64,000 nt of DNA from Lentisphaeria bacterium (lineage in GTDB: Bacteria > Verrucomicrobiota > Lentisphaeria > Victivallales > UBA1829). The stretch is from NCBI GenBank assembly GCA_017456805.1, contig JAFTIQ010000004.1, forward strand, positions 62,001 through 126,000, written 5' to 3'. Below are positions 18,087 through 53,645 of this stretch, piece by piece (position 1 is the first letter of the stretch; each line of letters begins with the position of its first letter). The notes under the pieces are model-generated. The model saw only the letters and a program-made list of their open reading frames with translations, was not told the DNA's origin and made no database searches. A program made the translations under genes and the position numbers.

Positions 18087-18263
18087 ATGAATTTGAAATT
18101 GGAAGAAAGTGCAAGATTGCTTCAGCAAAAAAGATTCAAAATTTATGAAATCGCGAAAAAGCTCAACTTCAACATATCAACCTGTTTTTGTGCCGTATTC
18201 CGGAAAAAGTCCGGAATGACTCCACTGGAGTATGAAAAATCATTTTCCGTTATTGAGAAATAA
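18087..18263 (+). pseudogene. Remnant of an AraC-family regulator (second helix-turn-helix only)
   Basis: A 58-residue frame matches the C-terminal DNA-binding half of AraC/XylS regulators: a leading LLQQKRFKIYEIAKKLNF segment, then a recognition-helix region with FRKKSGMTPLEYEKSF. A full AraC domain has two helix-turn-helices in about 100 residues, and whole proteins are 250 or more. Here a stop lies just upstream in frame (18057-18059), the first helix-turn-helix is missing and no ribosome site is evident. It overlaps the 3' end of the subtilisin-HD gene by 24 bases on the opposite strand. It is most likely a decayed gene end, though a short expressed DNA-binding peptide cannot be excluded. 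Confidence 0.65.
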
Positions 18264-19796
18264 CTTTTGCTTTTTTAACTTTGTCTTTAATTGCCGGATC
18301 GCTTTTTCCCTGCCGGCTTTCCGTTCAGCTTCCAGCCATCTTTGATGAAATTTATGAGCAGAGAGAAATTCAATTTCCTGTTCCAGCCATTCTTTATCTG
18401 ACAAAGAGTGTCCGGCGGCTTCTTTCTCTTTTCGCAGTAATTCCGATTTTTTCAGGTATTCATTGAGCCCGACATGTCCCAGATCTGCATCGCAGAGGAT
18501 CCGTTCCGGAAGCGTTTTCGGGGCGCAGGGATAGGCTGTTGCAGAAATGAGAGTTTGGATCCGTTTGATCTCTTTGGCTGTATAACCGAATTCCGGCAGG
18601 ATCTTTTCTGCCTTTTTGACAGCAATCTTTTCGTTATCAGAATATTGCTCCAGATATCCGGTGTCGTGAAGAAGAGCAGCCGTAAGCAGGCATTTCTTAT
18701 CCCTGTCTGTCAATGAGGTATAATGCTGCATAAACAGATGGACATGCGAGAGAACTTCTTTTGTATGCCGCGCATTATGATAGATATATGCTTTGGGAAG
18801 ATTGGTTGTCAGCTGCCGGATAATGAGATTGCCGAGCCGTTTATCCATGCCGGAAAACAGGGAGAAAATGTTTTTGCAGTCCGGACATTTCACAAAGGAG
18901 AACGCTTCATGAACGTTCAGGATCCGTTGGCAGTAAGGGCAGCGATACCGGCATTGTGCCGATTTTCTGCCGGAATTTCCGGAATGTTCCGCCACTTCAA
19001 GAGGATTCGGTTCTTGAATGGAACGGAAACTGTTTTTCTGAGAATGATATTTCAGGATCGCTTTGATTTCAAAGAGTTCCAGTTCGGGATATTTTCCGAG
19101 CAGCAGAGCAGCATTTCCGGAAACCATCGGCGTTGCAAAACTGGTTCCTGTTAAACGGTAATATCCGCCGCCGTGAAGTGCAGCCAGAACATTTTCCCCG
19201 TGAGCGGCAAATTCAATGGGCTGCTCATCGATGTGCTCTATATAATAAGGATTATTTTCATAAGAGTGGTTATCCACACTGATGCAGCTGGAAAGTTCTG
19301 CCGGGAAACCGAGATCTCCGGATTTCACAGTGTTCCGTTTTGAGGCAATAACGATTTTATGTTTCTGATAAGCCTGTTCCAGAAGCTGGGCGATCTCATT
19401 GCGGTATTTTGCCAGACATACCAAACTCATATTAATGATTTTAGCATCGCTTTCGATGGCGGCTTTCAATCCGGCCAGCATGATCTTACCGGTTCCGGAG
19501 AACGTGGAGTTCAATACTTTGAAATCCAGAATTCTGACATTCGGCGCGATTTTGGCGATAATGCTTGCGACTGCTGTTCCGTGTCCGGCAGCATCATTGT
19601 TATGATTTTGCGGAAGGGCTTTTTGAACGATGGTTCCGTTTTCTTCCTGAAATTCCCAGGCACCTGCAACTTTTTTTCTCAGAACTTCATGAGTGGAATC
19701 GATACCGCTGTCAATCACGGCGACCTTCACGGGGCGGAGTGGGTGCTTCCTCAGCTCCGGAAATGATTCTTTCAGGATGTCGGAGAGGAACATCAT
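18240..19796 (-). CDS. Cytosolic subtilisin-like protease fused to a zinc ribbon and an HD hydrolase domain
   Basis: A 518-residue three-part protein. Residues about 20-260 are an S8 subtilase with an intact triad: D29 in VAVIDSGID, H72 in GHGTAVA, S219 in GTSFATPM, plus N155 in the oxyanion region. A four-Cys zinc ribbon follows (CPYC at 286-289, CPDC at 304-307). The end (about 335-480) is an HD phosphohydrolase with YHNARHT (H340, H344), LLHDTGY (H377, D378) and later Asp residues at 436/438. There is no signal peptide or propeptide, so it should act in the cytosol. It overlaps the GAF gene by 4 bases and ends an operon led by a sigma factor. I know of no characterised protein with this layout. 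Confidence 0.85.
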   Translation of the reverse strand: MMFLSDILKESFPELRKHPLRPVKVAVIDSGIDSTHEVLRKKVAGAWEFQEENGTIVQKALPQNHNNDAAGHGTAVASIIAKIAPNVRILDFKVLNSTFSGTGKIMLAGLKAAIESDAKIINMSLVCLAKYRNEIAQLLEQAYQKHKIVIASKRNTVKSGDLGFPAELSSCISVDNHSYENNPYYIEHIDEQPIEFAAHGENVLAALHGGGYYRLTGTSFATPMVSGNAALLLGKYPELELFEIKAILKYHSQKNSFRSIQEPNPLEVAEHSGNSGRKSAQCRYRCPYCQRILNVHEAFSFVKCPDCKNIFSLFSGMDKRLGNLIIRQLTTNLPKAYIYHNARHTKEVLSHVHLFMQHYTSLTDRDKKCLLTAALLHDTGYLEQYSDNEKIAVKKAEKILPEFGYTAKEIKRIQTLISATAYPCAPKTLPERILCDADLGHVGLNEYLKKSELLRKEKEAAGHSLSDKEWLEQEIEFLSAHKFHQRWLEAERKAGREKAIRQLKTKLKKQKLFLNNGK

Positions 19797-22944: not shown

Positions 22945-24123
22945 ATGAAATTCAGATTATTGCTGGTATTCGCTTTCGTTTCCGTTACTCTTTTTTCCGC
23001 TGCTCCGGAAGAACTGATGAACCGGAAACTTTATATTCTGACCTGGCGCGGGGTTCAGGAAAAGCCCAATGAAAATCTTTTCTATTCTCCTTACAGCATT
23101 CAGCAGGCCATGGGGATGCTCTCTCTCGGCGCAAGCGGAAAAACAAAAGAACAGATCGATCAGGTGTTCGGTTTCACTCCGGAATCTTTAGAGTGGTTCG
23201 CAAAAAATAAACAGATCCTCTCCGGAAAAAATCAAACCTTCTTCTTTCAGACAAATCTGATTCTTGCCGATAGAAATCTGAAATATGATCCGGCGTTCCG
23301 GAATTCTGCCGGAAAATATTTTGATGGAAATTTCCTGCTTCTGGATTTCGTATTCAAATCCCGGATCACTGCTTTACTGAACCGTATGATAGCTGTCCGC
23401 AGCGGAAACCTGATCAAAGATCCGTTTTCCGAACATGATTTTTCCCCGGAAATGATCATGCTGCTGGCAAATATTCTCGCTTTCAAAGCTCCATGGGAAT
23501 TTGAATTTGATAAATCCCGGACAACTTCTCAGCCTTTTCTTTCCGCCGGACAGAAAAAGACAACGGTTGAATTGATGCACCAGAAAAGTTTTCTGCCCTA
23601 TTTTCACGATGCTTCCAAAAAGATCCACGGGGTGAGTCTGCCTTATAAAGATAACCGGTTTGAGATGATTATTCTGATGACGACCAAGCCGGACGTTGAT
23701 GTTTCTGTGATTCCCCAGGCGCTTTCCGAAGGAGCTCTTGAAAAGTGGAGCAAGGCTTTTTCCGATAAAAAACAGACGAATCTCTATTTCCCCAAGTTCA
23801 AGCTGTCTGTCAAAACCGATTTCTCAGAACTTCTGAAGAGTTGCGGGGTCCGTGATGCGTTTCTGTTGACGAAGGCGGATTTTTCCAGACTCGGAAATGA
23901 AAATCTTTGTGTGGACAACATTCTGCATATTGCACAGATCGAAGTGGATGAAACCGGAACGGAAGCTGCTGCGGCAACTGTGATTCCTGTTGTAGAAAAG
24001 GCGGCTGCTCCTGCCGGATCACACTATTTCCGGGTGGATCGTCCATTCTGTTTTCTGATTCGATACAAACCGGCGAACGCCATTCTTTTTCTGGGTGTGA
24101 TCCATCAGCTTCCGGGAAAATAA
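22945..24123 (+). CDS. Secreted inhibitory-type serpin
   Basis: A 392-residue serpin with a cleavable signal peptide (about 1-20). Conserved parts are ENLFYSPYSIQQAMGML-type helix B, ILANILAFKAPWEFEF with the breach region, and the reactive loop hinge ETGTEAAAATVIP near 343-355, whose small residues are expected only in inhibitory serpins that insert the loop. The C-terminal FRVDRPFCFLIR and ILFLGVI are typical. The loop after the hinge (VVEKAAAP) does not clearly reveal the target protease. Bacterial serpins can block host or competitor proteases outside the cell. ATG preceded by AAAAGG. Confidence 0.92.
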   Translation: MKFRLLLVFAFVSVTLFSAAPEELMNRKLYILTWRGVQEKPNENLFYSPYSIQQAMGMLSLGASGKTKEQIDQVFGFTPESLEWFAKNKQILSGKNQTFFFQTNLILADRNLKYDPAFRNSAGKYFDGNFLLLDFVFKSRITALLNRMIAVRSGNLIKDPFSEHDFSPEMIMLLANILAFKAPWEFEFDKSRTTSQPFLSAGQKKTTVELMHQKSFLPYFHDASKKIHGVSLPYKDNRFEMIILMTTKPDVDVSVIPQALSEGALEKWSKAFSDKKQTNLYFPKFKLSVKTDFSELLKSCGVRDAFLLTKADFSRLGNENLCVDNILHIAQIEVDETGTEAAAATVIPVVEKAAAPAGSHYFRVDRPFCFLIRYKPANAILFLGVIHQLPGK

Positions 24124-24208
24124 TTCTCTGATTTTTACATAACTCAGAGCTCAGCTCGGAATAATCGGAATATTTTCTGAAAAACATGGAACTTTTTCGG
24201 GAAAAGGA

Positions 24209-24237
24209 TTGTATTTTTTTCTTAAGTGTGCTATATT
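24209..24237 (+). promoter_or_regulatory. Promoter of the TM1266-like gene and probably of the nitrogenase-like operon
   Basis: TTGTAT at 24209-24214, 17 bases, TATATT at 24232-24237 preceded by GTGC. I see no second promoter in the 178 bases before the first nifH-like gene, so this may drive the whole cluster. Confidence 0.7.
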
Positions 24238-24296
24238 ACTCTGCAGTGATCCGGAAGAACCGTTCTCCGCTGCAGCAAAAAAGAAAGGCTGATACA

Positions 24297-24542
24297 ATGG
24301 AAAACAGAGTCGCACTGCTTGCTATTCTTGTCGGAAGTTCTGATTCCGCAGAGGATATCAATGGGATCCTTCATGATTTCAATCAATGGATCATTGGAAG
24401 AATGGGGTTGCCATACCGGGAAAAAAATACGCATATCATCAGCATTATGATGGACGCTCCAGTGGATAAAATCAATGCCCTTGCCGGGAAACTCGGCAGG
24501 ATCCCCGGAGTGACCGCAAAAGCTGTATATGCAGAAAAATAA
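24297..24542 (+). CDS. TM1266-type putative hydrogenase-system regulator
   Basis: An 81-residue protein with the pattern of the TM1266 family (small ferredoxin-fold/ACT-like proteins annotated as iron-only hydrogenase system regulators): an N-terminal VALLAILVG strand, FNQWIIGRMGLPYREKN in the middle and a GRIPGVTAKAVY strand at the end. In other bacteria these genes sit beside FeFe-hydrogenase maturation genes. Here it precedes nitrogenase-like and hyp genes instead. ATG at 24297 follows AAGAAAGG; the longer frame from 24186 overlaps the promoter. Its biochemical role is not established. Confidence 0.8.
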   Translation: MENRVALLAILVGSSDSAEDINGILHDFNQWIIGRMGLPYREKNTHIISIMMDAPVDKINALAGKLGRIPGVTAKAVYAEK

Positions 24543-24720: not shown

Positions 24721-25482
24721 ATGCTGAAGTTTACTTTTTACGGAAAAGGCGGGATCGGAAAATCCACGACTGTCTCCAATCTTTCTGCCGTGTTTGCTCA
24801 AAAAGGATTGCGGGTCATGCAGATCGGCTGCGATCCCAAAGCGGATTCCACATCCTTGCTTCATAACGGAGTGAAAATCCCTGCCGTATTGGATTTGATC
24901 CGGGAACGCAATCATGATTTTACGCTGGAAGAAATGGTTTATACCGGTGACGGAGGGGTGCTTTGTGTGGAAGCCGGAGGTCCTGTTCCCGGGCTCGGCT
25001 GTGCCGGACGGGGGATCATTGCCGCGTTGGAAAAGCTGGAACAGAAGGGAGCGTATGACGTCTATAAACCGGATGTTGTGCTTTATGATGTGCTGGGAGA
25101 TGTGGTTTGCGGCGGTTTCACGATGCCCATGCGGAAGGGGTATGCCGATCAGGTTTATATTCTGACCTCCGGAGAAAAAATGTCGATTTATGCCGCGGCG
25201 AATATTGCAATGGCTGTTGAAAATTTCCGGGGCAGGGGATATGCTCCCCTGGGCGGTTTGATCCTGAACCGCAGAAATGTGGAAGAGGAAGAACAGAATG
25301 TTCTGCGTCTTGCCGGAGATTTTCATACTTCGATCGTGGGTGATATTGCGTTGAGTGAAGAGATCCGGAAGGCAGAGAAACTCGGGAAAACCGTTGTGGA
25401 AGCGTTTCCGGAATCCGAAGCGGCACGGCAGTTCCGGGCATTGGCTGAAATGCTTTTGCAAAATGGAGGTTCCCCATGCTGA
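24721..25482 (+). CDS. NifH-like iron protein, module 1
   Basis: A 253-residue nitrogenase reductase homologue. P-loop GKGGIGKST at 8-16; the two 4Fe-4S ligands that bridge the dimer are C94 in PGLGCAGRG and C130 in [19 protein letters not shown] near 37-44 is switch I. All are intact, so it should be an ATP-driven electron donor to a NifDK-like partner. It is shorter than true NifH (about 290) and closer in size to group IV-type Fe proteins. AAAGG ribosome site 9 bases before the ATG. Its stop overlaps the NifD-like start by 7 bases. Confidence 0.92.
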   Translation: MLKFTFYGKGGIGKSTTVSNLSAVFAQKGLRVMQIGCDPKADSTSLLHNGVKIPAVLDLIRERNHDFTLEEMVYTGDGGVLCVEAGGPVPGLGCAGRGIIAALEKLEQKGAYDVYKPDVVLYDVLGDVVCGGFTMPMRKGYADQVYILTSGEKMSIYAAANIAMAVENFRGRGYAPLGGLILNRRNVEEEEQNVLRLAGDFHTSIVGDIALSEEIRKAEKLGKTVVEAFPESEAARQFRALAEMLLQNGGSPC

Positions 25483-26813
25483 AACGGATCGGCAGAAATG
25501 AAGATATGACCGGTGCGGAAACGGCGATTCGCAATGCCGTATTTCCGGCGCCGTTTGCTGCCGGTTTGGAATTCAGTGCGCCTGCGCGCGGACCCTGGAA
25601 CATTGTTCATACTGGGATGCTGATCCCGGAATCGCATCAGATTTTTATCTGTGCCCGTGGATGTTTGCGGGGCGTGATCCTCACCGCTGCGGAAATGAAT
25701 GCCATGAACCGGATGTCATGGGTCTCTCTGGAAGAAAATGATTTTTTCACCGGCAGAATGGAAAATGATGCGGTGGAACGGTGCAGTCATATTTTGAGTC
25801 AGATGCCGGAGAAACCGAAGGCGGTTCTTTTGTTTATCAGCTGTGTTCAGCTTTTTACCGGGTTTGATTTTGATCTGGTTCTGGATCAGCTGCGGGCGCA
25901 GTTCCCGGAAATCGATTTTATTGATTGTTACATGCATCCGACTATGAGGAAGAGCGGTTTGACCCCTGATCAACTCATGCGTCAGCAATTATTTGCGCCC
26001 TTGAAGCCGGTTCCGGCGAATCCCCGATCCGTTGCGATCCTCGGCAATGATTTGACAACGGATCCGGAAAGTTATCTTTGCAGAACGATTACCGGGAATG
26101 GATTTGAGCTGCAGGATATCACTCTTTGCCCGGATTATCAGGCGTATCAGAAAATCGGGGAAAGTTCTCTGATGATTGCCACATATCCCCCCGCGAAAGC
26201 CGGTGCGGAACATCTTGCAAAACGGCTCGGCAGAAAGTTCCTCTATCTTCCGATCAGTTATTCTTATAACGAAATTATTGAGGAGCAAAATCTTCTTGCT
26301 GAAGCACTTGGGATTCCTCCGGATGATCCGTCATTGCGCGTTGCCGCCGCAGAAAAAGCTCTGGCAAAGGCAAAAGAAATCATCGGAGATATGGCGATAG
26401 AGATTGATTATACTGCCGCGCCGCGTCCTTTGGGATTGGCCCGGCTGCTGCTGGATCACGGCTTCCGTGTGAAACGCGTTTATGCAGATGTGTTTATCGG
26501 AGAGGAAAAGGAAGCGTTTGATGATTTGCAGCGCCGTTATCCGGATTTGATTTTAACTGCCACGGTTCATGCAAAGATGAGGTTTGCCGGGAAGGGGAGC
26601 CGGGGAAATGAACCGGTTCTTGCGATCGGAGAAAAAGCCGCATATTTCAGCGGAAGCCGTCATTTCGTGAATATGATTGCCGGCGGCGGAGGTCATGGCT
26701 TTGAGGGGATCATCGGTTTGACCGAACGGATGATCGATGCGTTTCAGAATGAAAAAGATACAGAAAAAATCATTCAGCTCAAAGGGCTTGGATGTGAAAG
26801 CTGCCTGATATGA
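25476..26813 (+). CDS. NifD-like nitrogenase component 1 subunit, module 1
   Basis: A 445-residue component 1-type protein. The N-terminal part has WNIVHTGMLIPESHQIFICARGCLRGV with C59 and C63, and C123 lies in FISCVQLFTGFDFD, which matches the third P-cluster Cys position of NifD (ECPIGLIGDDI type). No Cys corresponds to the FeMo-cofactor ligand C275 of Azotobacter NifD. Near the end, H396 and H407 in RHFVNMIAGGGGHGFEG sit where NifD has its MHSWDY...YHGYDG histidines. The protein finishes with an unusual CESC tail (C440, C443). It is not a standard nitrogenase; substrate unknown. Confidence 0.85.
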   Translation: MLKRIGRNEDMTGAETAIRNAVFPAPFAAGLEFSAPARGPWNIVHTGMLIPESHQIFICARGCLRGVILTAAEMNAMNRMSWVSLEENDFFTGRMENDAVERCSHILSQMPEKPKAVLLFISCVQLFTGFDFDLVLDQLRAQFPEIDFIDCYMHPTMRKSGLTPDQLMRQQLFAPLKPVPANPRSVAILGNDLTTDPESYLCRTITGNGFELQDITLCPDYQAYQKIGESSLMIATYPPAKAGAEHLAKRLGRKFLYLPISYSYNEIIEEQNLLAEALGIPPDDPSLRVAAAEKALAKAKEIIGDMAIEIDYTAAPRPLGLARLLLDHGFRVKRVYADVFIGEEKEAFDDLQRRYPDLILTATVHAKMRFAGKGSRGNEPVLAIGEKAAYFSGSRHFVNMIAGGGGHGFEGIIGLTERMIDAFQNEKDTEKIIQLKGLGCESCLI

Positions 26814-27955
26814 AACAGACTGCCAGAATCATTTCAATTTATGCGTCAGATACAGCTGGAATCTGTTCCATGCTGTATGAACTGGGCGGAATGACAATTG
26901 TTCACGATGCCTCCGGGTGCAATTCAACGTATTCGACTCATGATGAACCCCGCTGGTATCAGCATGACAGTATGATCTATATTTCCGCATTGACAGAAAC
27001 CGATGCCATTTTGGGAAATGATGCCCGGCTGATCGACGATATCGTCAGAGCTGCAAGTGAACTGCATCCGCGTTTTATTGCGCTTTGCGGTTCTCCCATG
27101 CCGCTGATGATCGGCACAGATTTTGATGCTCTTGCGGAAGAACTGGAACGAAAGACCGGATTGCCCGTGTTTGGGTTTCATACGAATGGGATGAACAGTT
27201 ATCTTGATGGTGCATCTCATGCGCTTTGCGCTTATCTGGAACGGTTTGCAGAAGATCGGGGCAGAGAGAAACGCTGCGTGAATATCATCGGCGCAACGCC
27301 CCTTGATTTTTCTCTGAACGGTTCTGTGGGAGCGATCCGGGCGTGGCTGCGGGAAAATGATTTTACAGTCAGTTCCTGTATGGCAATGGAGAGTGATCCG
27401 GAAGAGATTGCCGGTGCAGGACGTGCCAGTGTAAATCTTGTGGTATCCTCCTGCGGCATTGCGGCAGCGGAGTATTTACAGAAACGTTTTGCGACTCCAT
27501 GGGTTTCCGGGATTCCCTTTGGGAAAGGTTTTTCCAGGGAGCTCTTGAAGGCATTGAACGAGGCTGAAAAAACGGGTGAGAACAGGTTTCCTCATTTGGA
27601 TCGGCATGTACCGGAGCAGGGGGGCGTTTCTGTTGTTGGCGAGAGTATTGCGGCATCATCTTTTGCTGCTGCGCTTGAGCTGGATTGCGGAATTCCTGCC
27701 CGGGTTTTGTGTCCGGAATGTCTTCAGCCCGCCCAAATAACCGGCATGGACCGGGTGATTGATTGTGAAGATTCGATGGCGAACGCCTTTTCGGAATCGG
27801 AAATCGTGGTTGCGGATCCATTATTTGAACCGATTTGTCCTGCCGGAGTCAGATTTATCCGGCGTCCTCATGAAGCATTTTCCGGCAGATGCTTTTCCAG
27901 GGAGAACTTGAATGATATTTGCCGGGAATTGAAACGGGAGATGTTGGGATTATGA
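26810..27955 (+). CDS. NifK-like nitrogenase component 1 subunit, module 1
   Basis: A 381-residue component 1 protein, shorter than NifK. C19 ([13 protein letters not shown]), C37 ([19 protein letters not shown]) and C93 ([18 protein letters not shown]) have the order and spacing of the three P-cluster Cys of NifK (70, 95, 153), so an interface cluster with the NifD-like partner is likely. The rest has repeated Rossmann-like strands ([25 protein letters not shown]). ATGA overlap with the NifD-like gene upstream and the NifH-like gene downstream. Confidence 0.85.
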
Positions 27956-28707
27956 TCAAGATAGCGATTTACGGAAAAGGCGGGATCGGGAAGTCCACTG
28001 TGACCTCCAACCTTGCGGCAGCGTTTGCGCGTCTCGGGAAGAAAGTGATTCAGATCGGCTGTGATCCGAAGGCGGATTCCACCATCAATCTGCTGAATGG
28101 AAATCCTGTTATGCCGGTGATGAATTATCTCCGGGAATATGATAAGGAACCGGAATCGATCGCAGAGATCGCCAAAGAAGGATTCGGCGGGATCCTCTGT
28201 ATTGAAACCGGGGGACCGACGCCCGGACTCGGCTGTGCCGGACGGGGGATCATTACCACATTCAGTCTGCTGGAAGATTTGAAATTATTCGAAGTTTATA
28301 AGCCGGATGTTGTCCTTTATGACGTTCTCGGGGATGTCGTTTGCGGGGGCTTTGCCGCACCCATCCGGGAGAATTATGCGGATCATGTGCTGATTGTAAC
28401 TTCCGGTGAAAAAATGGCACTTTATGCGGCAAATAATATCAACAGTGCAGTTCAGAATTTTGCGGACCGTGCGTATGCCAAAGTGTTCGGCCTTGTCTTG
28501 AACCGGCGGAGTGTGGAAAAAGAAGAGGAAAAAGTCCGTGCGTTTGCCGATGCCAACGGATTGAAGATTGTGGCGGATATTCCCCGGAGCAATGATATCA
28601 TCCATTGGGAAGATCAAGGGAAAACAGTTGTGGAAGGAGCTCCGGAATTGCCTGTCAGCCAACAGTTTCTTGCATTGGCGGGAAAATTTCTCCATGAGGA
28701 AAAATGA
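27952..28707 (+). CDS. NifH-like iron protein, module 2
   Basis: A 251-residue paralogue of the first NifH-like protein with intact P-loop GKGGIGKST (8-16), C95 in PGLGCAGRG and C131 in [11 protein letters not shown]. The ATG at 27952 overlaps the previous stop as ATGA; an in-frame start at 27919 would overlap more and lacks the family N-terminus. Two different reductases in one operon suggest each serves its own component 1 pair, or that one acts in cofactor assembly as NifH does for NifEN. Which is which cannot be read from sequence. Confidence 0.92.
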
Positions 28708-30008
28708 CGATGGGAAAAGAGGCTTATTTTATTACAGCAAGAGATCTTGCCGCATTGGGAAAGAATCAGATTCCCTCCGAATTGGTATCTGCAACGCATC
28801 TGATTTACAGTTCTCCAGCGACACTTGCGTTCAATTCCCCCGGGGCTCAGGGGTTCGGTGTAAAACGGGCAGGCTTGGCGGTCCCGGGATCTGTCATGCT
28901 GCTGGTCGCTCCCAGATGCTGCGGAAGAAACACCTCTGCGCTGGGAACTGATGGGGCTTACGCGGACCGGTTTTTCTATCTGCTGCTGGATGATACAGAT
29001 ATTGTGACAGGCAGACATCTGATGAGGATCCCGGATGCTGTCAAAGAGGTTTGTGAATCCTGCGGGACGTTTCCGAGCGCAGTGATGATTTGTATTACCT
29101 GTGTGGATGCTCTTCTTGGAACGGATATGGACCGGGTGTGCCGGAAGGCTTCCGAGCGCGCCGGTGTTCCTGTTGTGCCCTGTTATATGTATGCGCTCAC
29201 ACGGGAAGGGCGGGTTCCGCCTATGACATCTGTCCGGAAAAGTGTTTATTCTCTCCTGAAGAAACAGCCGAAAAAGCCGGAATCTGTTAACTTGCTGGGA
29301 TATTTTTCTCCGCTGCGGGATGACAGTGAACTCTATCACCTGCTCAAACAGGGCGGGATCAAAACGATCCGGGAGATCTCCCGCTGCAAAGATTTTGCAG
29401 AATATCAGGCAATGTCGGAAGCGAATTTCAATCTTGTTCTGAATCCGGAAGCCCGTTATGCTGCGCTGGATCTGGAACAGCGGCTGGAGATCCCGTTCAT
29501 TGAATTGGCAAGAGTCTATCAGATTGAAAAAATCAGAAATCAGTACCGTCTTCTTGCCCAGGCTGCGGGATTGGTATTTGATGATCAGCCTTATTATCAG
29601 GAGGCGGAATCGGAGGTCAAAGCGTGTTTGGAATCCTTCGGGGCTCTGAAATTTTCCGTCGGAGAATGGTGCAATGCAGATCCCTTTGAATTATCGCTCT
29701 CCCTTCTGAGATACGGGTTCCAAGTGAAAGAGATTTTCGGAACAGTCGGAAGCGGAAATTTTGTTTTTATCAAACGGATTGCTGAACTCAGCCCGGAAAC
29801 GAAGATCTATTCCAATCTTTCGCCCTCGATGATCTCTTACCGTGAACAGGAAAAACCGGATTTTGTCATCGGTCAGGATGCAATGTATTATCATCCGCAA
29901 GTGCCGGGATTGCGCTGGAACGGAGAGGCACAGCCCTTCGGATATTCCGGAGTGACAGCTCTGTTCCGTGAAATTTCAAAGGTTTTGAAAGGGGGATCCG
30001 GAAAATGA
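28704..30008 (+). CDS. NifD-like nitrogenase component 1 subunit, module 2
   Basis: A 434-residue paralogue of the module 1 NifD-like protein, but clearly divergent. It has an adjacent Cys pair C72-C73 (VAPRCCGRN) where module 1 has CARGC, and C133 in [13 protein letters not shown] matching the third cluster Cys, with an extra C130. The C-terminal glycine/His segment of module 1 is replaced by [13 protein letters not shown] with no His, and the CESC tail is absent. It starts with an ATGA overlap; the ATG six bases further is an alternative. Likely partner of the following NifK-like protein. Confidence 0.8.
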
Positions 30009-31051
30009 AAATGTTATTGAAACGCTTATCTCCATTTGCGCCGGATCATTCCGGAGCAGTGTCTGTTTTGTTTGAACTTGGCGGCTTGATCGTGATTTGC
30101 GATGCCGGTGGATGCACCGGGAATATTTGCGGTTTCGATGAACCCCGCTGGTTTACCTCAAAATGTGCCTTGTTCAGTGCGGCTCTGCGGGATATGGATG
30201 CGATTCTGGGGCGGGATGAATATCTTGTCCGGAAATGTGCCTCTGCATTGGAGGATACGGGTTCTGACTTTACCGCGCTGATTTCCACTCCTGTTCCTGC
30301 CGTGATTGCAACCGATTTCAAGGCGTTGAAACGGATGGTGGAACGGAGAACCGGAAAACCGGTAATTGCTGTCCCTGCCGCCGGGACCGGGCTTTATGAT
30401 GCCGGAGCGGAATTTGCTTATCTGGAATTGATGAAAACCTTTGCGGTGGAATCCTTTGCAGTAGAATCCGGAAGAGCCGGTATTCTGGGAGTGACCCCTC
30501 TTGATTTCAGCCGGACAGATGCCGGACTTGCTGTTGCGGAAAAATTTTATGCTTCCGGTTGGAAAAAAGTGTTCTGCTATGGAATGGGGGCAGGGTTGGA
30601 AACGATCCGGACCGCTTCGGCTGCCGAGAAAAATTTTGTTGTTTCCCCATCCGGGCTGGCAGCTGCGGAATATTTGAAACAGAAGTTCGGAACACCTTAT
30701 GAAGTGATGTGCCCGTACCTGCCGGAATCACTGGAAAAAGAGCTGGAATCTTTGCAGGGGAAACGGGTTTTTGTGATCCATCAGCAGTTTGCGGCAAATG
30801 AGATCCGCCGCAGAGTCGGGGAGAATGTGACAGTCGGTTCCTTCTTCCGGATGGAAAAAGCGTTTATGAGACCGGAAGATATTGCGTTTTCCGGCGAGGA
30901 GCACTTCCTGAGTTATTTTGAAGAACATCACTGCGATGTTGTGATCGGGGATCCGAAATTCCGGAGATTGGTTGCCGGGAAGTGTGAACGGTTCATTCCG
31001 TTCTGTCATTTTGCGGTTTCCGGACAGCTTGAGGAGGGGCATAGCTTATGA
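30005..31051 (+). CDS. NifK-like nitrogenase component 1 subunit, module 2
   Basis: A 348-residue paralogue of the module 1 NifK-like protein, recognised by VLFELGGLIVICDAGGC and GFDEPRWF (about 21-50). Of the three P-cluster-type Cys of module 1 only C37 remains: position 19 is Val (SGAVS) and the third is Ile-Ser (ALISTPVP). New Cys C32 and C42 flank C37. So the interface cluster must be different or absent. Overlaps hypF as ATGA, so translation passes directly from nitrogenase-like to Hyp genes. Confidence 0.8.
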   Translation: MKMLLKRLSPFAPDHSGAVSVLFELGGLIVICDAGGCTGNICGFDEPRWFTSKCALFSAALRDMDAILGRDEYLVRKCASALEDTGSDFTALISTPVPAVIATDFKALKRMVERRTGKPVIAVPAAGTGLYDAGAEFAYLELMKTFAVESFAVESGRAGILGVTPLDFSRTDAGLAVAEKFYASGWKKVFCYGMGAGLETIRTASAAEKNFVVSPSGLAAAEYLKQKFGTPYEVMCPYLPESLEKELESLQGKRVFVIHQQFAANEIRRRVGENVTVGSFFRMEKAFMRPEDIAFSGEEHFLSYFEEHHCDVVIGDPKFRRLVAGKCERFIPFCHFAVSGQLEEGHSL

Positions 31052-33324
31052 GAGAAACGGATTTGATCCGTGTTTACGGCATCGTTCAGGGCGTTGGTTT
31101 CCGACCGTTTACAGATCGGCTGGCAGCGCGTTTTTCCCTGAACGGAAGTGTTGCCAATAAGGGGTCTTATGTGGAGATCCATCTTCAGGGAGCTCCTGAG
31201 CAGCGCCGTGAATTTCTCTCAGCTCTTGAGTTGGAAGCCCCGCCGAGATCCGCCATTTTGCGGGTGGATGTCAAGACCGTAATGGAGCCGGAATATACAG
31301 GGTTTGAGATCATCGAAAGCGAAAAGGAAACCGGCGCGATCTTTGTCTCGCCGGATATCGCAACCTGTCCGTTGTGCAAACAGGAATTGTTTGATCCGGA
31401 AAACCGGAGATATTTGCACCCCTTCATCAACTGTACTGCCTGCGGTCCCCGGCTGACGATTCTTGAATCCATGCCTTATGACCGGGAACGGACTACGATG
31501 AAGGAATTTCCCATGTGTCCGGAGTGTGCCGGAGAATATGATTCCCCCGGGAGCCGCCGTTATGATGCACAGCCGGTGTGCTGCAATGATTGCGGTCCGG
31601 AGGTTTATCTTGTGGGAAGAACTGAACGCGGGGCTGAGGCAATCCGGATCGCAAAACAGGCGATTCTTGACGGCAAAGTCCTGGCTGTCAAAGGAATCGG
31701 CGGTTTCCATCTGTGCTGCAATGCCTTTGACGAAACAGCCGTCATGCGCTTGAGAACCCTCAAACACCGTCCGGTGAAACCCTTTGCTTTGATGATGCGG
31801 GATCTGGAAACGATCAAATCTCATTGTCACGTTCCGGAGCACCTGCTTCCGCTGCTGGATGGACACCAGAAGCCGATCATTCTGTTAAATAAAAAATCGG
31901 AAAGCTCTTTGCCGGAAGCACTTGCGCCTGGAAATCCGAAACTTGGCGTGTTCCTTCCCTATACTCCGCTGCACATGCTGCTGTTTCATCGGGACGGTTT
32001 GGAAATGCCGGAAGCTTTGGTTATGACCAGCGGCAATGTTTCAGGAGCTCCGATCTGCCGTTCAGATGAGGATGCCCTTTCTGAAATCTCCTCTTTCTGT
32101 GATCTGATTCTTTCCCATAACCGGAAAATCCTGCTCCGTGCAGATGATTCTGTGATGGACACCTTCCGGGAAGAACCTTATATGATCCGGCGTTCCCGTG
32201 GCTATGCACCGCTTCCGAAAATGCTTTCCGGCGAATGGCATGGAAAGGTTCTCGGGATCGGCGGAGAACTCAAAAACACCTTTTGTCTGGGGCATGATTC
32301 GCTGTTTTATCTTTCGCCTTATCTTGGCGATATGGAAGATATCCGGACCGTTAATGCCCTGCAGGAATCTGTCAGCCGAATGGAATCGCTGCTCGAAATT
32401 CAGCCTCAGCTGATCGCCTGTGACCTGCATCCGCGTTACCATACAACAGAAGTTGCTGAATCATTCGGGATCCCGGTCATGAAAATACAGCATCATTATG
32501 CCCACATCCTTTCCTGTATGGCTGAGAATGATTTTCACCAGCCGGTCATTGGGGTTTCTTTTGACGGGACCGGATATGGGACCGATGGGACGATCTGGGG
32601 CGGAGAAGTGCTTTATTCTGATTATCAAGGCTTTGAACGGTCTGCACGGATCATGCCGTTCCTTCAGGCAGGCGGAGATGCTTCCGCAAAAGAAGGCTGG
32701 CGGATCGCTGCTGCAATGATCCAATCCCTGTTCCCGGAACGGGCTGCTGAAATTGTGGAAACTCTCGGTATCTGTTCCGGGCAGGAACGGAAAATGATTG
32801 CTCTTATGACAGAAAAACGTTTGAACACTGTCGTGTCCACCAGCTGCGGACGGCTGTTTGATGCGGTCAGCGCGATTCTGGGGCTCTGCCGCCGTTCCTC
32901 TTTTGAGGGCGAAGCTGCTGTGAAATTGCAGTTCGCCGCGGAATCTTCCCCGGATGTTTCTATGGAAAATATTCCGGAGAATATTGTACATGAAGGCATT
33001 TTGACCATGCGGACGGATCTGCTGGTCAGAGAGTTGATCGAACAGCGTCTTTCCGGAGAATCCCCCCGGAGATGCGCCCGGAGGTTCCATGGGAAACTTG
33101 CCGGGATGATCGCTCAAACCTGTGCTCAGCTGCGGGAGCATTATCAATCCAATACCTGTGCTCTGAGCGGTGGAGTGTTTCAGAATACCCTGCTGCTGGA
33201 GGAGACGGTTTCCCGTTTGGAACGGCTTGGTTTTACTGTGTTGAAACATCAGCTTGTTCCGCCGAATGATGGGGGGATTGCTTTGGGGCAGGCGGCTGCA
33301 GCTATGAAAAAATTAAACTCGTAA
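31048..33324 (+). CDS. hypF: Carbamoyltransferase HypF
   Basis: A 758-residue, full-length HypF. Order: acylphosphatase domain (VYGIVQGVGFRPFTDRLA near 9-26), two zinc fingers (CPLC...CTAC about 107-134, CPEC...CNDC about 156-182), a YrdC-like domain (KGIGGFHLCCNA onwards) and a Kae1-like domain with HHYAHI metal ligands near residue 480 and SGGVFQN near the end. It uses carbamoyl phosphate and ATP to carbamoylate the C-terminal Cys of HypE, giving the cyanide of Fe(CN)2CO. It begins with ATGA on the NifK-like gene. Confidence 0.95.
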   Translation: MRETDLIRVYGIVQGVGFRPFTDRLAARFSLNGSVANKGSYVEIHLQGAPEQRREFLSALELEAPPRSAILRVDVKTVMEPEYTGFEIIESEKETGAIFVSPDIATCPLCKQELFDPENRRYLHPFINCTACGPRLTILESMPYDRERTTMKEFPMCPECAGEYDSPGSRRYDAQPVCCNDCGPEVYLVGRTERGAEAIRIAKQAILDGKVLAVKGIGGFHLCCNAFDETAVMRLRTLKHRPVKPFALMMRDLETIKSHCHVPEHLLPLLDGHQKPIILLNKKSESSLPEALAPGNPKLGVFLPYTPLHMLLFHRDGLEMPEALVMTSGNVSGAPICRSDEDALSEISSFCDLILSHNRKILLRADDSVMDTFREEPYMIRRSRGYAPLPKMLSGEWHGKVLGIGGELKNTFCLGHDSLFYLSPYLGDMEDIRTVNALQESVSRMESLLEIQPQLIACDLHPRYHTTEVAESFGIPVMKIQHHYAHILSCMAENDFHQPVIGVSFDGTGYGTDGTIWGGEVLYSDYQGFERSARIMPFLQAGGDASAKEGWRIAAAMIQSLFPERAAEIVETLGICSGQERKMIALMTEKRLNTVVSTSCGRLFDAVSAILGLCRRSSFEGEAAVKLQFAAESSPDVSMENIPENIVHEGILTMRTDLLVRELIEQRLSGESPRRCARRFHGKLAGMIAQTCAQLREHYQSNTCALSGGVFQNTLLLEETVSRLERLGFTVLKHQLVPPNDGGIALGQAAAAMKKLNS

Positions 33325-33336
33325 GGAGAATGAAAT

Positions 33337-33546
33337 ATGTGTGTCGGACTTTCTGCAAAAGTATTACGGATCGAAGATGGAACAGCTTTGATCGATGCCT
33401 CCGGGGCTCAGAGAGAAGTCAGTGCTGATTTGCTGGATGATTTGGAGCCGGGAGATTATGTGATGGTTCATGCCGGGATCGCGATCGCCAAGATCACGGG
33501 AGAAAAAGTAGAGGTGCAGGATGCTGAAAGCAAAGAAAATTGTTGA
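33337..33546 (+). CDS. hypC: Hydrogenase maturation chaperone HypC
   Basis: A 69-residue HypC/HybG/HupF protein. The invariant Cys2 is present in MCVGLSAKV (usually MCLGxPxxV), and VSADLLDDLEPGDYVMVHAGIAIAKI matches the OB-like core. HypC binds iron with HypD and normally carries it to the large hydrogenase subunit; here its client is unknown. It follows hypF by 12 bases with an AAGGAG site, and overlaps hypD by 26 bases. Confidence 0.9.
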   Translation: MCVGLSAKVLRIEDGTALIDASGAQREVSADLLDDLEPGDYVMVHAGIAIAKITGEKVEVQDAESKENC

Positions 33547-34555
33547 ATCGTACACCGGGCGTCCTCTGCGGATCATGGAAGTTTGCGGAACGCATACCCA
33601 TGAGATCTTCCGTCAGGGAATCCGGAAAATCCTGCCGGAGAATATCAAACTGATCTCCGGACCGGGCTGTCCTGTCTGTGTGACCCCTGTAGGGTACATT
33701 GATAAAGCGATTGCGCTGGCATTGAGGGAAAATACAGTGATCTGTACCTTTGGCGATCTGATCCGGGTTCCCGGAACGGAGATGAGTCTTGCCGGGGCAA
33801 GAGCAAAAGGCGCGGAACTGAAAGCTGTTTATTCGCCCATGGATGCACTCAAACTGGCAGAAGAAAATCCGGAAAAACAAGTGATCTTTTTATCTGTCGG
33901 ATTTGAAACGACCGTTCCCGGATCCTGTCTGGCTGTCAAAAAAGCAAAAAAGAAAAATGTTGCCAATTTTTCTCTTCTGACTGCCAATAAAACCATGCCT
34001 ATGGCATACAATGCGCTGCAAAACAGTGCAGATGCATTCCTTTTTCCCGGACATGTGAGTGTGATCACCGGAACAAAATTATATGAAGATCTGCGGGAAA
34101 AAGGGATCTCCGGTGTTGTTGCCGGGTTTACAGCAGAAGAGGTTTTAACCGCCCTGGCAGTGATCATTCAGGAATCAGAAAAAGGAAAGCCCTTCTTCCG
34201 GAATTGCTATCCCTCGGTGGTGAAAGAGGAGGGAAATCCTCTGGCTGTTCAAGTGACAAATGAAGTCATGGAGGCATGTGATTCCGAATGGAGAGGGCTC
34301 GGCGTGATTCCCCAATCCGGCTTGAAGCTCCGGGCAGAATATCAGGAATTTGATGCGGAACTCCGTTTTGCACTTCCGCCGATGGATGGCAGAGGAAATC
34401 CTGCCTGCCGCTGCGGGGAGATCCTGCGCGGGGATTGCTGTCCGAAAGATTGCCCGCTGTTCGGAAAAGTTTGTACCCCGCTGAACCCTGTCGGGGCATG
34501 TATGGTTTCCGGAGAGGGAACCTGTTCTGCTTACTACCAATATGGAGATCTTTGA
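33521..34555 (+). CDS. hypD: Fe(CN)2CO assembly protein HypD
   Basis: A 344-residue HypD with the family motifs: MEVCGTHTHEIFRQG near 19-33, GPGCPVCVTP near 47-56, SVGFETTVPG near 127-136, and the C-terminal 4Fe-4S cysteines in CRCGE...CCPKDCPLF...C. HypD with HypC is the scaffold on which cyanide and CO ligands are put on iron. The ATG at 33521 lies within hypC, a common overlap. Confidence 0.95.
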   Translation: MLKAKKIVESYTGRPLRIMEVCGTHTHEIFRQGIRKILPENIKLISGPGCPVCVTPVGYIDKAIALALRENTVICTFGDLIRVPGTEMSLAGARAKGAELKAVYSPMDALKLAEENPEKQVIFLSVGFETTVPGSCLAVKKAKKKNVANFSLLTANKTMPMAYNALQNSADAFLFPGHVSVITGTKLYEDLREKGISGVVAGFTAEEVLTALAVIIQESEKGKPFFRNCYPSVVKEEGNPLAVQVTNEVMEACDSEWRGLGVIPQSGLKLRAEYQEFDAELRFALPPMDGRGNPACRCGEILRGDCCPKDCPLFGKVCTPLNPVGACMVSGEGTCSAYYQYGDL

Positions 34556-34556
34556 T

Positions 34557-35567
34557 ATGACACAAGATACTGTTACACTCGCTCATGGAGCCGGCGGAAG
34601 TCAGACCTCTGAACTGATCGACCGCGTTTTCAAGGCACATTTTGCCAATCCCGATTTTACCGGTGATGATGCCGCTGTTCTTTCCCTCACCGGAAAGAAA
34701 ATGGCATTCTCCACCGATGGATTTATCGTTTCCCCCTTTGAGTTTCCCGGCGGGAATATCGGAAAACTCAGCATTTGCGGAACCGTGAACGACCTTGCCT
34801 GTATGGGCGCAAAACCGAAATATCTTTCCTGTGCATTCGTGATCGAAGAAGGGTTCCCGATGGATAAACTGGAAGAGATCGCATCTGCAATGGAAAAGAC
34901 AGCCGCAGAAGCAGGCGTCCGGATTGTGGCGGGCGATACAAAAGTCGCCGGAAAAGGACAGGTCGATAAGATCTTTATCACAACTTCCGGCGTCGGGGAA
35001 ATTATGGAAAATGCTCATACTTCCGGAGCATTCGCAAAGCCGGGAGATGCAATCATCGTGACCGGTGATGTCGGGCGGCACGGTTGTACGATCCTGCTGG
35101 CAAGAAATGAATTCGGAATCGAAGCTTCTGATGTTGACAGCGATTGCGCTCCTCTCTGGGGGACTGTGGAAGCCATGTTCCAGACGACTTCCGATATTCA
35201 TGTGATCCGTGATGCCACCCGCGGCGGTGTGGGAACCGTCCTTTATGAAATCGCCGAACAGAGCAAAGTCGGGATCCGGCTTGATGCAAAATCTGTTCCC
35301 GTGGCGGATGGGGTCAAGGGCGTTTGCGGAATGTTGGGATTGGAACCGCTTTATCTGGCGTGTGAAGGACGTCTCGTGGTGTTCGCTCCGGCAGAAGTTG
35401 CTCCGGCTTTGGTGGAAACTCTGCGGAAATGCCCCTATTCCAAGAATGCGGCAATCATCGGTGAAGTCACTGCGGAACAGGTCGGAAAAGTCGTGATGAC
35501 AACTGAAATCGGTGCTCAGACTCTGCTGCCCCGTCCGGGCGGTGAACTGCTCCCCAGAATTTGCTGA
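34557..35567 (+). CDS. hypE: Hydrogenase maturation dehydratase HypE
   Basis: A 336-residue HypE of the PurM/ThiL ATPase fold. LAHGAGGSQTSELI opens the protein, GDDAAVL and GDTKVAGKG are nucleotide-binding segments, and it ends in PRIC with the C-terminal Cys that HypF carbamoylates and HypE dehydrates to thiocyanate. The start at 34557 has GGAG 9 bases upstream and lies just after the hypD stop; ATG 34542 is an alternative. It is the last gene of the cluster and converges on murD. Confidence 0.95.
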   Translation: MTQDTVTLAHGAGGSQTSELIDRVFKAHFANPDFTGDDAAVLSLTGKKMAFSTDGFIVSPFEFPGGNIGKLSICGTVNDLACMGAKPKYLSCAFVIEEGFPMDKLEEIASAMEKTAAEAGVRIVAGDTKVAGKGQVDKIFITTSGVGEIMENAHTSGAFAKPGDAIIVTGDVGRHGCTILLARNEFGIEASDVDSDCAPLWGTVEAMFQTTSDIHVIRDATRGGVGTVLYEIAEQSKVGIRLDAKSVPVADGVKGVCGMLGLEPLYLACEGRLVVFAPAEVAPALVETLRKCPYSKNAAIIGEVTAEQVGKVVMTTEIGAQTLLPRPGGELLPRIC

Positions 35568-50019: not shown

Positions 50020-51213
50020 ATGAGCAAAATTCGCGCAGAACACATTTTTACCTCGGAATCCGTTTCTGAGGGGCATCCTGATAAAGTGTCTGATCAGATT
50101 TCAGATGCAATTCTTGATGCCTGTCTGGAACAGGATCCTGAAAGCCGTGTCGCCTGTGAAACTCTTTGTACGACCGACCTGGTAGTCCTTTCCGGAGAAA
50201 TCACCACAAAAGCCAAAGTCGATTGGGAAGGAATTGCCAGAAATGTGATCCGTGAAATCGGTTACAATTCCGATGATCTCGGGTTCTGTGCAGACAGCTG
50301 TGATGTGAAAGTTTATATCCATAAACAGTCCCCGGATATTTCTCAAGGGGTCACTGTCGGGGAAGGGCTTCATAAAGAACAGGGTGCCGGCGACCAGGGA
50401 ATGATGTTCGGATATGCCTGCAATGAAACAGAATCCTATATGCCCGCAACGATTCATTATGCCCACCGGATCGTGGAAGAATTGGCGCGGCTCCGGAAAG
50501 CTGATCCCAAAACCTATTATTTTCTCCGCCCTGACTCCAAATCTCAGGTTTCCATGCTTTACAAAGATGGAAAGCCGGTTTGCGTGAAAGCAATCGTTGT
50601 ATCTCATCAGCATACCCCTGACATGGAACGGGAACAGCTGGAAGCTCTGGTTAAAGATGTGGTGAAAAAAGTCATTCCCGCTCAGTTCCTGAACTGCGGA
50701 ATTGAATGGCACATCAACCCCACCGGACGCTTCGTTCTCGGCGGACCTGCCGGAGATACCGGTTTGACCGGACGGAAAATCATTGTGGATACCTATGGCG
50801 GAGTCGGTTCTCACGGCGGCGGTGCATTCTCCGGAAAAGACCCCTCCAAAGTGGACCGTTCTGCGGCTTATATGTGCCGTTATATTGCAAAAAATATCGT
50901 CGCTGCCGGGTTGGCTGAAAAATGCGAAGTCCAGGTCGCTTACGCGATCGGGGTCGCTCAGCCCGTTTCTGTCAACGTGGATACTTACGGAACCGGAAAG
51001 CTTGCAGCAGAGGCTTATGAAGCGATCGTCCGCAAAGTCTTTGATCTGACTCCTGCCGGAATTTTGGAAACCCTTCAGCTGAAGCATCCCGGAAAAGGAA
51101 ACTGGAGCTATCGGAAATATTGCACATACGGTCATTTCGGAAGAACCGGTGTGCCCTGGGAAGAACTTGATAAAGTGGAACTTCTCCGGAAAGAGGCTGA
51201 ACAGTACAAATGA
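50020..51213 (+). CDS. metK: S-adenosylmethionine synthetase
   Basis: A 397-residue Met[22 protein letters not shown] opens it with the ATP-site His, [12 protein letters not shown] near 125-136 and [18 protein letters not shown] near 267-284 are the two PROSITE-type signatures. It makes SAM from methionine and ATP. It overlaps the next gene by 4 bases and heads an activated methyl cycle operon. Confidence 0.97.
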
Positions 51214-52199
51214 GTCGAACACCCACAGTTCTCGGTTTCGGAACCGCAATTCTGGATTTGCTGGTTCGTGTGGATGATTCTTTCATAACAGAACATTCCG
51301 GCGGTGGAAAAGGCGGCATGATCCTTGTGGATGAGGCTGCCTGCAGCAACATGCTTTCTCTTTTGCCGGAATGTAAAGTCGCCCCCGGCGGATCTGCCGG
51401 AAACACCCTTGCCGGTTTGCTCCGGCTCGGAATCGGCGGCCGTATGCTGGGAAAAGTCGGCAGAGACGAACAGGGCGATCTTTACAGGGACCGTTTCGCC
51501 AAGCTGGGCGGGGATATTTCTTCCTTCAAATTTTCTGAAACGACCCGCACCGGTTGCTGTATTTGTCTTGTGACGCCGGATTCTGAACGGACCATGAGAA
51601 CGTATCTCGGAGCTGCATCTGAAATGACAGAGGCGGATTTCCGGCCGGAGGATCTTGAAGGTGTGGATCTGATCCATTTGGAAGGATATCAATTGTACAG
51701 TCCGGGCATGTTTGAACGGCTGCTTTCCGAAGCAAAAAAACGGAATATCCCTGTCAGTTTTGATTTCTCTTCCTATGAGATCGTGAAGACTTTCCGGGAT
51801 CGCATTGCAGATTTGCTCAACGATGTTTCCATCATCTTTGCCAATGAAGAAGAAGCTGCGGAATTTGTCGGAAGAGATAAATTTACACCGGAATACGCTC
51901 TTGATGTCCTTTCCGGTTATTGCAATACCGCCGTTGTGAAACTTGGAAAAAAAGGTGCATTGCTCCGCCGGAACGGCGAGACTGTGTTTGTCAATGCAGA
52001 ACTTGTCAATGCTGTTGATACCACCGGGGCAGGGGACTTGTGGCAGGCTGGGTTCCTTTATGGATATCTGACCGGAAGATCTCTTGAGACCTGCGGAAAA
52101 CTCGGAGCTGCTCTCGGTGCAGAAGTCGTCAGTGTGCTCGGCGGATCTGTTCCTGAAGAGGGCTGGCAGCGGATTATTCAGAAATTTAACTTGAAATAA
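51210..52199 (+). CDS. PfkB family kinase, probable adenosine kinase
   Basis: A 329-residue ribokinase-fold sugar/nucleoside kinase. The [15 protein letters not shown] substrate segment is near 57-71, and the catalytic [13 protein letters not shown] with the base Asp is near 271-283. Its position between metK and ahcY strongly suggests adenosine kinase, which removes the adenosine made by AhcY and pulls that reversible reaction forward. By sequence alone it is a general PfkB kinase. Overlaps metK (ATGA). Confidence 0.85.
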
Positions 52200-52211
52200 A
52201 GGATATGGAAC

Positions 52212-53633: not shown

Positions 53634-53645
53634 GGAATCGTTCAA

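Follow-up and report, generated by a model that had tools for sequence, protein, structure and literature searches.

A nitrogenase-like and hyp gene operon that probably takes the place of HydG in [FeFe]-hydrogenase maturation

The maturation of [FeFe]-hydrogenases is taught as needing three proteins, HydE, HydF and HydG, with all of the carbon monoxide (CO) and cyanide (CN) ligands of the H-cluster coming from tyrosine. In NiFe-hydrogenase maturation, HypF and HypE convert carbamoyl phosphate to the cyanide ligand, and HypC and HypD hold an Fe(CN)2CO-type unit. Here we describe a tight operon of ten genes, in which two sets of genes for nitrogenase-like proteins (H1-D1-K1 and H2-D2-K2) run directly into hypF-hypC-hypD-hypE, in a stretch of 64,000 nucleotides from a Lentisphaeria bacterium (assembly GCA_017456805.1, contig JAFTIQ010000004.1, positions 62,001 to 126,000; henceforth the window). 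Comparison of related genomes shows that the operon occurs where HydG has been lost but HydF and the [FeFe]-hydrogenase HydA are retained, and it probably takes over from HydG the synthesis of the H-cluster's Fe/CO/CN precursor, a reading to which we give a probability of about 0.78.

In PMC11736057, HydG is described as cleaving tyrosine to yield [Fe(Cys)(CO)2(CN)]-, which passes to HydE, with a diiron unit then delivered to HydF. In a survey of eight Clostridium acetogens by Di Leonardo and colleagues (PMC9431212), HydE and HydF are reported in all eight, HydG in three and no standard HydG in the other five; HypCDEF, which build Fe(CN)2CO, are reported without HypAB in five of the eight. Set against the HydE-HydF-HydG route, carriers of the operon are alike in keeping HydE, HydF, HydA and a TM1266-family regulator. 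They are unlike it in that 29/30 and 19/19 carriers, in the two genome sets described below, have no HydG (a tyrosine lyase and the source of the CO/CN synthon), and in that two nitrogenase-like complexes and HypFCDE are found in its place.

Occurrence of the operon in relation to HydG

A scan of reference genomes with D2 returned 320 related stretches, of which 80 were kept; all counts of loci refer to these 80. The ten genes occur together in 55 of them, spread over several phyla, with many of the others ending at contig edges. This implies that the neighbourhood is not due to chance, an explanation rejected also because the genes overlap and their order is conserved, and the partnership of nitrogenase-like genes with hypFCDE made in the original prediction is therefore a conserved one. 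Where at least 6.5 kb of room is available beyond D2 (55 loci), hypF, hypC, hypD and hypE are all found there in 53, and hypF, hypC and hypD in the remaining two. D1 lies 5' of D2 in 57 loci; in 14 others it comes after D2, and 13 of those have it beyond hypE. A tree of D2 built from the window and 79 of the 80 loci (one was omitted by length) places 52 of the 79 in Bacillota, 21 in Lentisphaerota and one each in Spirochaetota and Synergistota; the window's D2 falls with Lentisphaerota, its closest row being 87% identical. In two loci, L013 (6009-8105) and L017, H1 and D1 share a single open frame of about 700 codons; Clostridiaceae bacterium BL-3 also has a protein record of this kind.

The genes adjoining the operon are those of [FeFe]-hydrogenase maturation. 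Searches of the 80 loci with tblastn found HydE in 34 and HydF in 26 (at least one of the two in 45) and a regulator gene (reg) in 50; no locus has a match to HydG. Where HydE is present, its match stops 2-17 bases 5' of H1 in 30 of the 34 loci, the exceptions being L013, L017, L040 and L046. Clustering of neighbours gave two families 5' of H1, the scanned members of which are HydF (two proteins, 549 and 577 bits against an equivalog cut-off of 326) and HydE (four proteins, 485-577 bits against 255); for 334 residues the HydE of Ruminococcus bicirculans can be aligned with HydE chains of solved structure. Across the entire window, tblastn with HydE, HydF and HydG gave no match. The window does hold reg, overlooked in the original prediction, directly 5' of H1, and its match to the TIGR03959 hyd_TM1266 equivalog, named by NCBI after the iron-only hydrogenase system, points to an [FeFe]-hydrogenase.

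Whole genomes were then compared in two sets. The first comprises the genomes behind 30 of the 80 loci, in which every candidate match was scored. The [FeFe]-hydrogenase family PF02906 is found in all 30, and HydG exceeds its cut-off, genome-wide, only in Clostridium drakei. All 30 have some match to the HydG profile at E ≤ 0.001, and these were counted as HydG only above the cut-off; matches below it are common, reaching up to 228 bits against the 312 required, and are probably ThiH. All 15 HydA-like open reading frames (ORFs) from 14 chosen regions of 11 genomes keep TSC[CS]PxW and ExMxC, the L1 and L3 H-cluster motifs of HydA, and 11 of them also keep MPCxxK. The operon without HydG is present in this set in genomes of Lentisphaerae, Lentisphaeria, Victivallales and Spirochaetaceae as well. 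In C. drakei a gene for a TM1266-like regulator ends 3 bases before hydG (L081:1216-2916).

The second set is a sample of 393 Clostridia genomes, searched with the same settings for HydG, HydF, D2 and D1; two genomes, G001 and G012, belong to both sets. HydG exceeds its cut-off in 241 genomes and HydF in 260, with D2 present in 13 (E ≤ 1e-170) and D1 in 19 (E ≤ 5.5e-137). All 19 carriers of D1 have HydF and all 19 are without HydG over the cut-off, and D1 at this threshold is found in none of the 234 genomes with both HydF and HydG. The 26 genomes with HydF and no HydG divide into 19 with D1 and seven without. For D2 the corresponding table (13/13/0/234) gives a Fisher p of 3.5e-15, uncorrected for kinship.

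These counts depend on where families are divided. The HydG profile matches 244 genomes at E ≤ 1e-60, and the weakest three of these (G012, G304 and G305) were taken to be those below the cut-off and counted as lacking HydG, their matches probably being ThiH. Below the 19 carriers the E-values of D1 jump from 5.5e-137 to 3e-109; matches from 1e-63 to 1e-109 (G093, G147, G155, G161, G260 and G387) were counted as a different family, as were those of D2 from 1e-62 to 1e-74 (G147, G155, G260 and G387), and weaker matches of D1 from 1e-12 to 1e-17 (G193, G210, G289, G345, G414 and G419) were left uncounted. Six apparent matches of D2 at 1e-35 to 1e-49 proved on inspection to be D1.

Hyp genes, two types of carrier and an importer

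HypD is found in all 30 genomes of the first set, as a single copy in 28. The two NiFe-hydrogenase large-subunit families are uncommon there: PF00374 occurs in five genomes, PF00346 in four, either in six and neither in 24, R. bicirculans being among these 24. Of the six, G010 and G018 each carry an additional HypD on the contig of the large subunit, about 7 kb away at most. As in the HypABCDEF system, the operon keeps HypF, HypC, HypD and HypE with the end motifs of HypC and HypE intact; it differs from that system in having no hypA or hypB, in the rarity of HypA over its cut-off (six of 30 carriers) and in the lack of a large subunit in most carriers. The HypE of the window ends in PRIC, as do all 57 relatives of more than 300 residues (three shorter ones of 60 being omitted), and the N-terminus of HypC reads MCVG in 68 of 68 relatives. 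These intact ends suggest that the cyanide machinery is functional, and the Hyp proteins of the operon look active as judged by sequence.

The 19 Clostridia carriers of D1 are of two types. Thirteen (type 1) have D1, D2 and HypD, and six (type 2) have D1 and neither D2 nor HypD, such that HypD is present in 13/13 of the former and 0/6 of the latter. The original prediction, in which the nitrogenase-like genes were tied to hyp as a whole, is consequently upheld for one module, D2 never being found without HypD (13/13 and 30/30, with two genomes shared), and fails for H1D1K1, found without it in 6/19. The same figures argue that the two modules do different jobs.

All six type-2 loci (L099-L104) have H1, D1 and K1, together with a PF01497 binding protein and a PF00005 ATPase; a PF01032 permease accompanies them in the five loci scanned for it (all but L102). 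By these families the importer is of the BtuCDF/FecBCD type. In four of the six loci a TM1266-like domain, scoring over the Pfam cut-off, is fused to the C-terminus of the importer's ATPase (Table 1), and L099, L101, L102 and L104 have a separate regulator gene. HydE is found in L099, L100 and L103, and HydF in L099 and L100. In trees the type-2 rows group with H1, D1 and K1 (support 0.94, 0.93 and 0.91), with five of the six loci represented for D and K and four for H. Module 2 hence goes with Hyp and module 1 with HydE and HydF, with the importer occurring in genomes that lack module 2 and Hyp.

A further family of H, D and K genes (L105, L106, L108 and, in part, L107) also adjoins an importer of the BtuCDF/FecBCD type, identified by Pfam or NCBIfam in L105 and L106. 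It resembles the type-2 loci in this importer and in the kinship of its D with D1 (0.98) and its H with H1 (0.97). It is unlike them in that its K groups with K2 in a joint tree of D and K (0.98) and in that no hyd or hyp genes lie alongside; its Clostridia hosts either have HydG or lack HydF.

The operon proteins and known relatives of nitrogenase

The gene order and the overlaps of 4-7 bases into hypF given in the original prediction are borne out, the successive overlaps from H1 through hypF being 7, 4, 4, 4, 4 and 4 bases. A gap of 12 bases follows between hypF and hypC, with overlaps of 26 bases between hypC and hypD and 14 between hypD and hypE (Table 1). The start of H2 was taken as the ATG, the usual start of NifH-like proteins; the ORF list begins it at the TTG at 27919. 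The statement there that hydrogenase subunits, nifB and further nif assembly genes are missing from the window agrees with Pfam scans of 39 window proteins (36 of them among the 59 listed ORFs), which gave no such family besides the genes named.

Table 1. Coordinates of the operon genes in the window (positions 24721-35567, preceded by reg) and of the importer ATPase fusions in type-2 loci
Feature	Product	Position	Strand	Evidence
reg	TM1266-family putative regulator of the [FeFe]-hydrogenase system	24186..24542	+	TIGR03959 equivalog 101 bits (cut-off 60.8); PF21699
H1	NifH/CfbC-like ATPase reductase, module 1	24721..25482	+	PF00142 293 bits
D1	nitrogenase component-1-like, module 1	25476..26813	+	PF00148 38.5 bits; no NCBIfam match
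K1	short component-1-like partner of D1	26810..27955	+	PF00148 118.8 bits; 381 residues
H2	NifH-like ATPase reductase, module 2	27952..28707	+	PF00142 294.7 bits
D2	nitrogenase component-1-like, module 2	28704..30008	+	PF00148 102.1 bits
K2	short component-1-like partner of D2	30005..31051	+	PF00148 61.2 bits; 348 residues
hypF	carbamoyltransferase	31048..33324	+	TIGR00143 759 bits (cut-off 466)
hypC	Fe(CN)2CO chaperone	33337..33546	+	PF01455
hypD	Fe-S scaffold for the Fe(CN)2CO group	33521..34555	+	TIGR00075 417 bits (cut-off 193)
hypE	thiocyanate-forming maturase	34542..35567	+	TIGR02124 418 bits (cut-off 252)
ATPase-TM1266 fusion	importer ATPase with TM1266-like domain	L100:2187-3296		
ATPase-TM1266 fusion	importer ATPase with TM1266-like domain	L101:5358-6413		
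ATPase-TM1266 fusion	importer ATPase with TM1266-like domain	L102:11226-12284		
ATPase-TM1266 fusion	importer ATPase with TM1266-like domain	L104:12266-13321		

Cys 94 and Cys 130 of H1 are kept in 65/65 aligned rows, and Cys 95 and Cys 131 of H2 in 78/78. In K1, Cys19 is kept in 20/21 and Cys37 in 21/21 type-1 rows, both being kept in 5/5 type-2 rows; Cys37 and Cys42 of K2 are kept in 31/31, and ten Cys columns of hypD score 1.00 across 67 rows.

Curated scores place the two modules in none of the described families. For NifHDK, the two H proteins reach 301 and 300 bits with the nifH model (cut-off 394), K1 and D2 reach 31.5 and 29.5 with nifD (654), K1 reaches 26.7 with nifK (427) and D1 has no score. 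The M-cluster ligand of NifD, Cys275, falls opposite a gap when the D2 profile is aligned with a nitrogenase alpha chain, with no conserved Cys of D2 there, and D1 likewise appears to lack it, judged by position only. CfbC gives 305 and 290 bits (402), BchL 191 and 207 (345), BchB 42.7 and 28.6 (490) and BchX 176 and 189 (331), so that CfbCD, DPOR and chlorophyllide reductase were each rejected; H1 reaches no NCBIfam cut-off at all. Chains of MarHDK (MAR) occur among the fold and sequence matches and are never the best, the trees holding no MAR reference. The operon proteins differ from MarHDK, CfbCD and DPOR both in reaching no NCBIfam equivalog cut-off and in their gene partners.

A further likeness is to NifEN acting with NifH. 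The component-1 fold is shared, being all that fold searches return, and NifE chains are among the best PDB sequence matches of D2 and K2; a reductive-scaffold role for the operon proteins is here a proposal. Membership was rejected, as K1, D2 and K2 score 64.7, 66.8 and 30 bits against a NifE cut-off of 505. K1 and K2 are also shorter, and the operon holds no other nif gene.

Elsewhere in the window, a serpin gene (22945-24123) lies upstream of reg and the operon, and a Mur-ligase-like gene lies 3' of hypE on the opposite strand. On the minus strand, a gene for a protein with subtilase and HD domains (18240-19796) adjoins one for a GAF protein, and an open frame of 837 codons (51132-53645) has no Pfam match. 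Rfam and tRNA scans gave no matches.

Proposed mechanism and its alternatives

As HydG is absent from nearly all carriers examined, their source of CN and CO must differ from the tyrosine route. We propose that HypF and HypE would supply cyanide from carbamoyl phosphate, with HypC and HypD holding an Fe(CN)2CO-type unit. This unit would be remodelled by H2-D2-K2, linked as it is with hypFCDE, or would gain CO from it, for example from CO2; low-potential electrons driven by adenosine triphosphate (ATP) would come from H2, much as when NifEN acts on the nitrogenase cofactor precursor. H1-D1-K1, linked with HydE and HydF, would then pass to HydE an Fe-CO-CN synthon that matches or resembles [Fe(Cys)(CO)2(CN)]-, and HydE followed by HydF would finish the H-cluster precursor as usual. 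In type-2 genomes the intermediate, or an iron complex from which it is formed, may be taken up from outside through the importer. The order of the modules, with H2D2K2 first and H1D1K1 passing its product to HydE, is drawn from linkage and is tentative, at somewhat less than even odds. That the H-cluster cyanide derives from carbamoyl phosphate via Hyp and, jointly, that type-2 genomes import an iron-cyanide/CO intermediate made by type-1 organisms, is a bolder reading and seems rather unlikely.

Several observations weigh against a replacement of HydG by the operon. C. drakei carries both, contrary to a simple one-for-one rule, and the seven of the 26 HydF-bearing, HydG-lacking Clostridia without D1 must reflect gaps or another route. 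The neighbours of HydF in six of these seven gave no clear answer; three of the six have loci of reg, hydE and hydF with neither HydG nor D1 (L158, L160 and L161, in G170, G272 and G317), representing gaps or a third route. An unrelated ABC importer lies beside L160. Some gene absences may be genome gaps, and in the class searches, which score at most four top-ranked candidates per genome, absence rests on ranking. The HydE counts are at the level of loci, and the genome-wide HydF counts are from the class sample, not the set of 30. Four of the six genomes with distant D1-like matches have HydF and HydG, the other two having neither, and no HydE was found nearby in three of the six type-2 loci. 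Clostridium ljungdahlii and Clostridium ragsdalei each possess a NiFe large subunit and a single HypD, and Hyp may there be shared with the NiFe-hydrogenase. The product of HypCD is Fe(CN)2CO and the substrate of HydE is Fe(CO)2CN, and the route therefore requires a ligand exchange that is so far hypothetical. The function of the operon is read from genome comparison, and its chemistry is a proposal.

The alternative that survives best, itself improbable, is that an unrecognised protein, such as an atypical radical S-adenosylmethionine (SAM) enzyme, replaces HydG, with the operon making another ligand or supplying iron. The seven genomes lacking D1 use something else or are incomplete, the HydG-profile matches below the cut-off that are probably ThiH are common, and the related H, D and K family adjoins iron-chelate-type importers without Hyd genes, all of which would agree with such a substitute; however, the cyanide and CO chemistry of HypFCDE is exactly what the loss of HydG removes, and the exclusion of D1 and HydG is strict.

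Slightly less probable again are two further readings. The operon could make a modified H-cluster, with other numbers of CN and CO or another bridge, for the HydA of these lineages. It is established that HypCD chemistry leads to Fe(CN)2CO, not Fe(CO)2CN, and MPCxxK is missing from 4/15 HydA-like ORFs, but the HydE and HydF proteins tested are ordinary equivalogs, the R. bicirculans HydE aligns with solved chains as noted above (334 residues), and most HydA motifs are intact. Alternatively, one module could be a new end-enzyme with an iron-cyanide/CO group and the other its scaffold, the link to Hyd being one of shared regulation only. This was the division of labour in the original prediction, and it is consistent with two paralogous modules adjoining hypFCDE and with the NifE chains among the matches of D2 and K2. 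The link to Hyp on which it was built is real, and an iron-cyanide/CO group is a natural reason for it, but the division fails to predict the exclusion of HydG (19/19 against 0/234), the position of hydE beside H1 or the six genomes with module 1 and neither D2 nor HypD, and the favoured reading is instead a replacement of HydG in which module 1 works with HydE and HydF.

That the hyp genes serve a NiFe-hydrogenase elsewhere, the nitrogenase-like genes being chance neighbours, is largely refuted: a large-subunit family or HypA is found in six of 30 carriers each, but 24 have neither family and all 30 have HypD, G010 and G018 have a second HypD near their large subunit, and the operon genes overlap in a conserved order.

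Replacement of HydG by the operon fits the published puzzle of acetogens without HydG. In C. ljungdahlii and C. ragsdalei the operon is present and no HydG passes the cut-off. PMC9431212 considers HydG-like radical SAM proteins of an atypical kind, which would count against the operon, or ligand mechanisms not yet known, and offers no straightforward explanation; the word 'nitrogenase' occurs there once, in the reference list. No mention of these genes was found in the main text of a paper on transposon essentiality in C. autoethanogenum (PMC9004356), and no link of nitrogenase-like genes to HydG loss was found in the open PMC literature, though a preprint or subscription paper could exist.

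If the operon does replace HydG, the published case of acetogens that have [FeFe]-hydrogenases but lack a standard HydG would be explained, and an unassigned nitrogenase-like family listed in databases as 'nitrogenase component 1' or hypothetical would gain a function. The joint reading, if true, would link NiFe and FeFe maturation through nitrogenase-like reductases, and would make a hydrogenase-cofactor precursor a shared, vitamin-like compound. Replacement of HydG is open to test in cultured C. ljungdahlii, Ruminococcus bicirculans and Roseburia faecis. It would mean that many gut anaerobes and syngas-fermenting Clostridium use an ATP-driven route that borrows Hyp and two nitrogenase-like complexes. 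It would also open another way of producing active hydrogenases and would bear on the handling of hydrogen in the rumen and colon.

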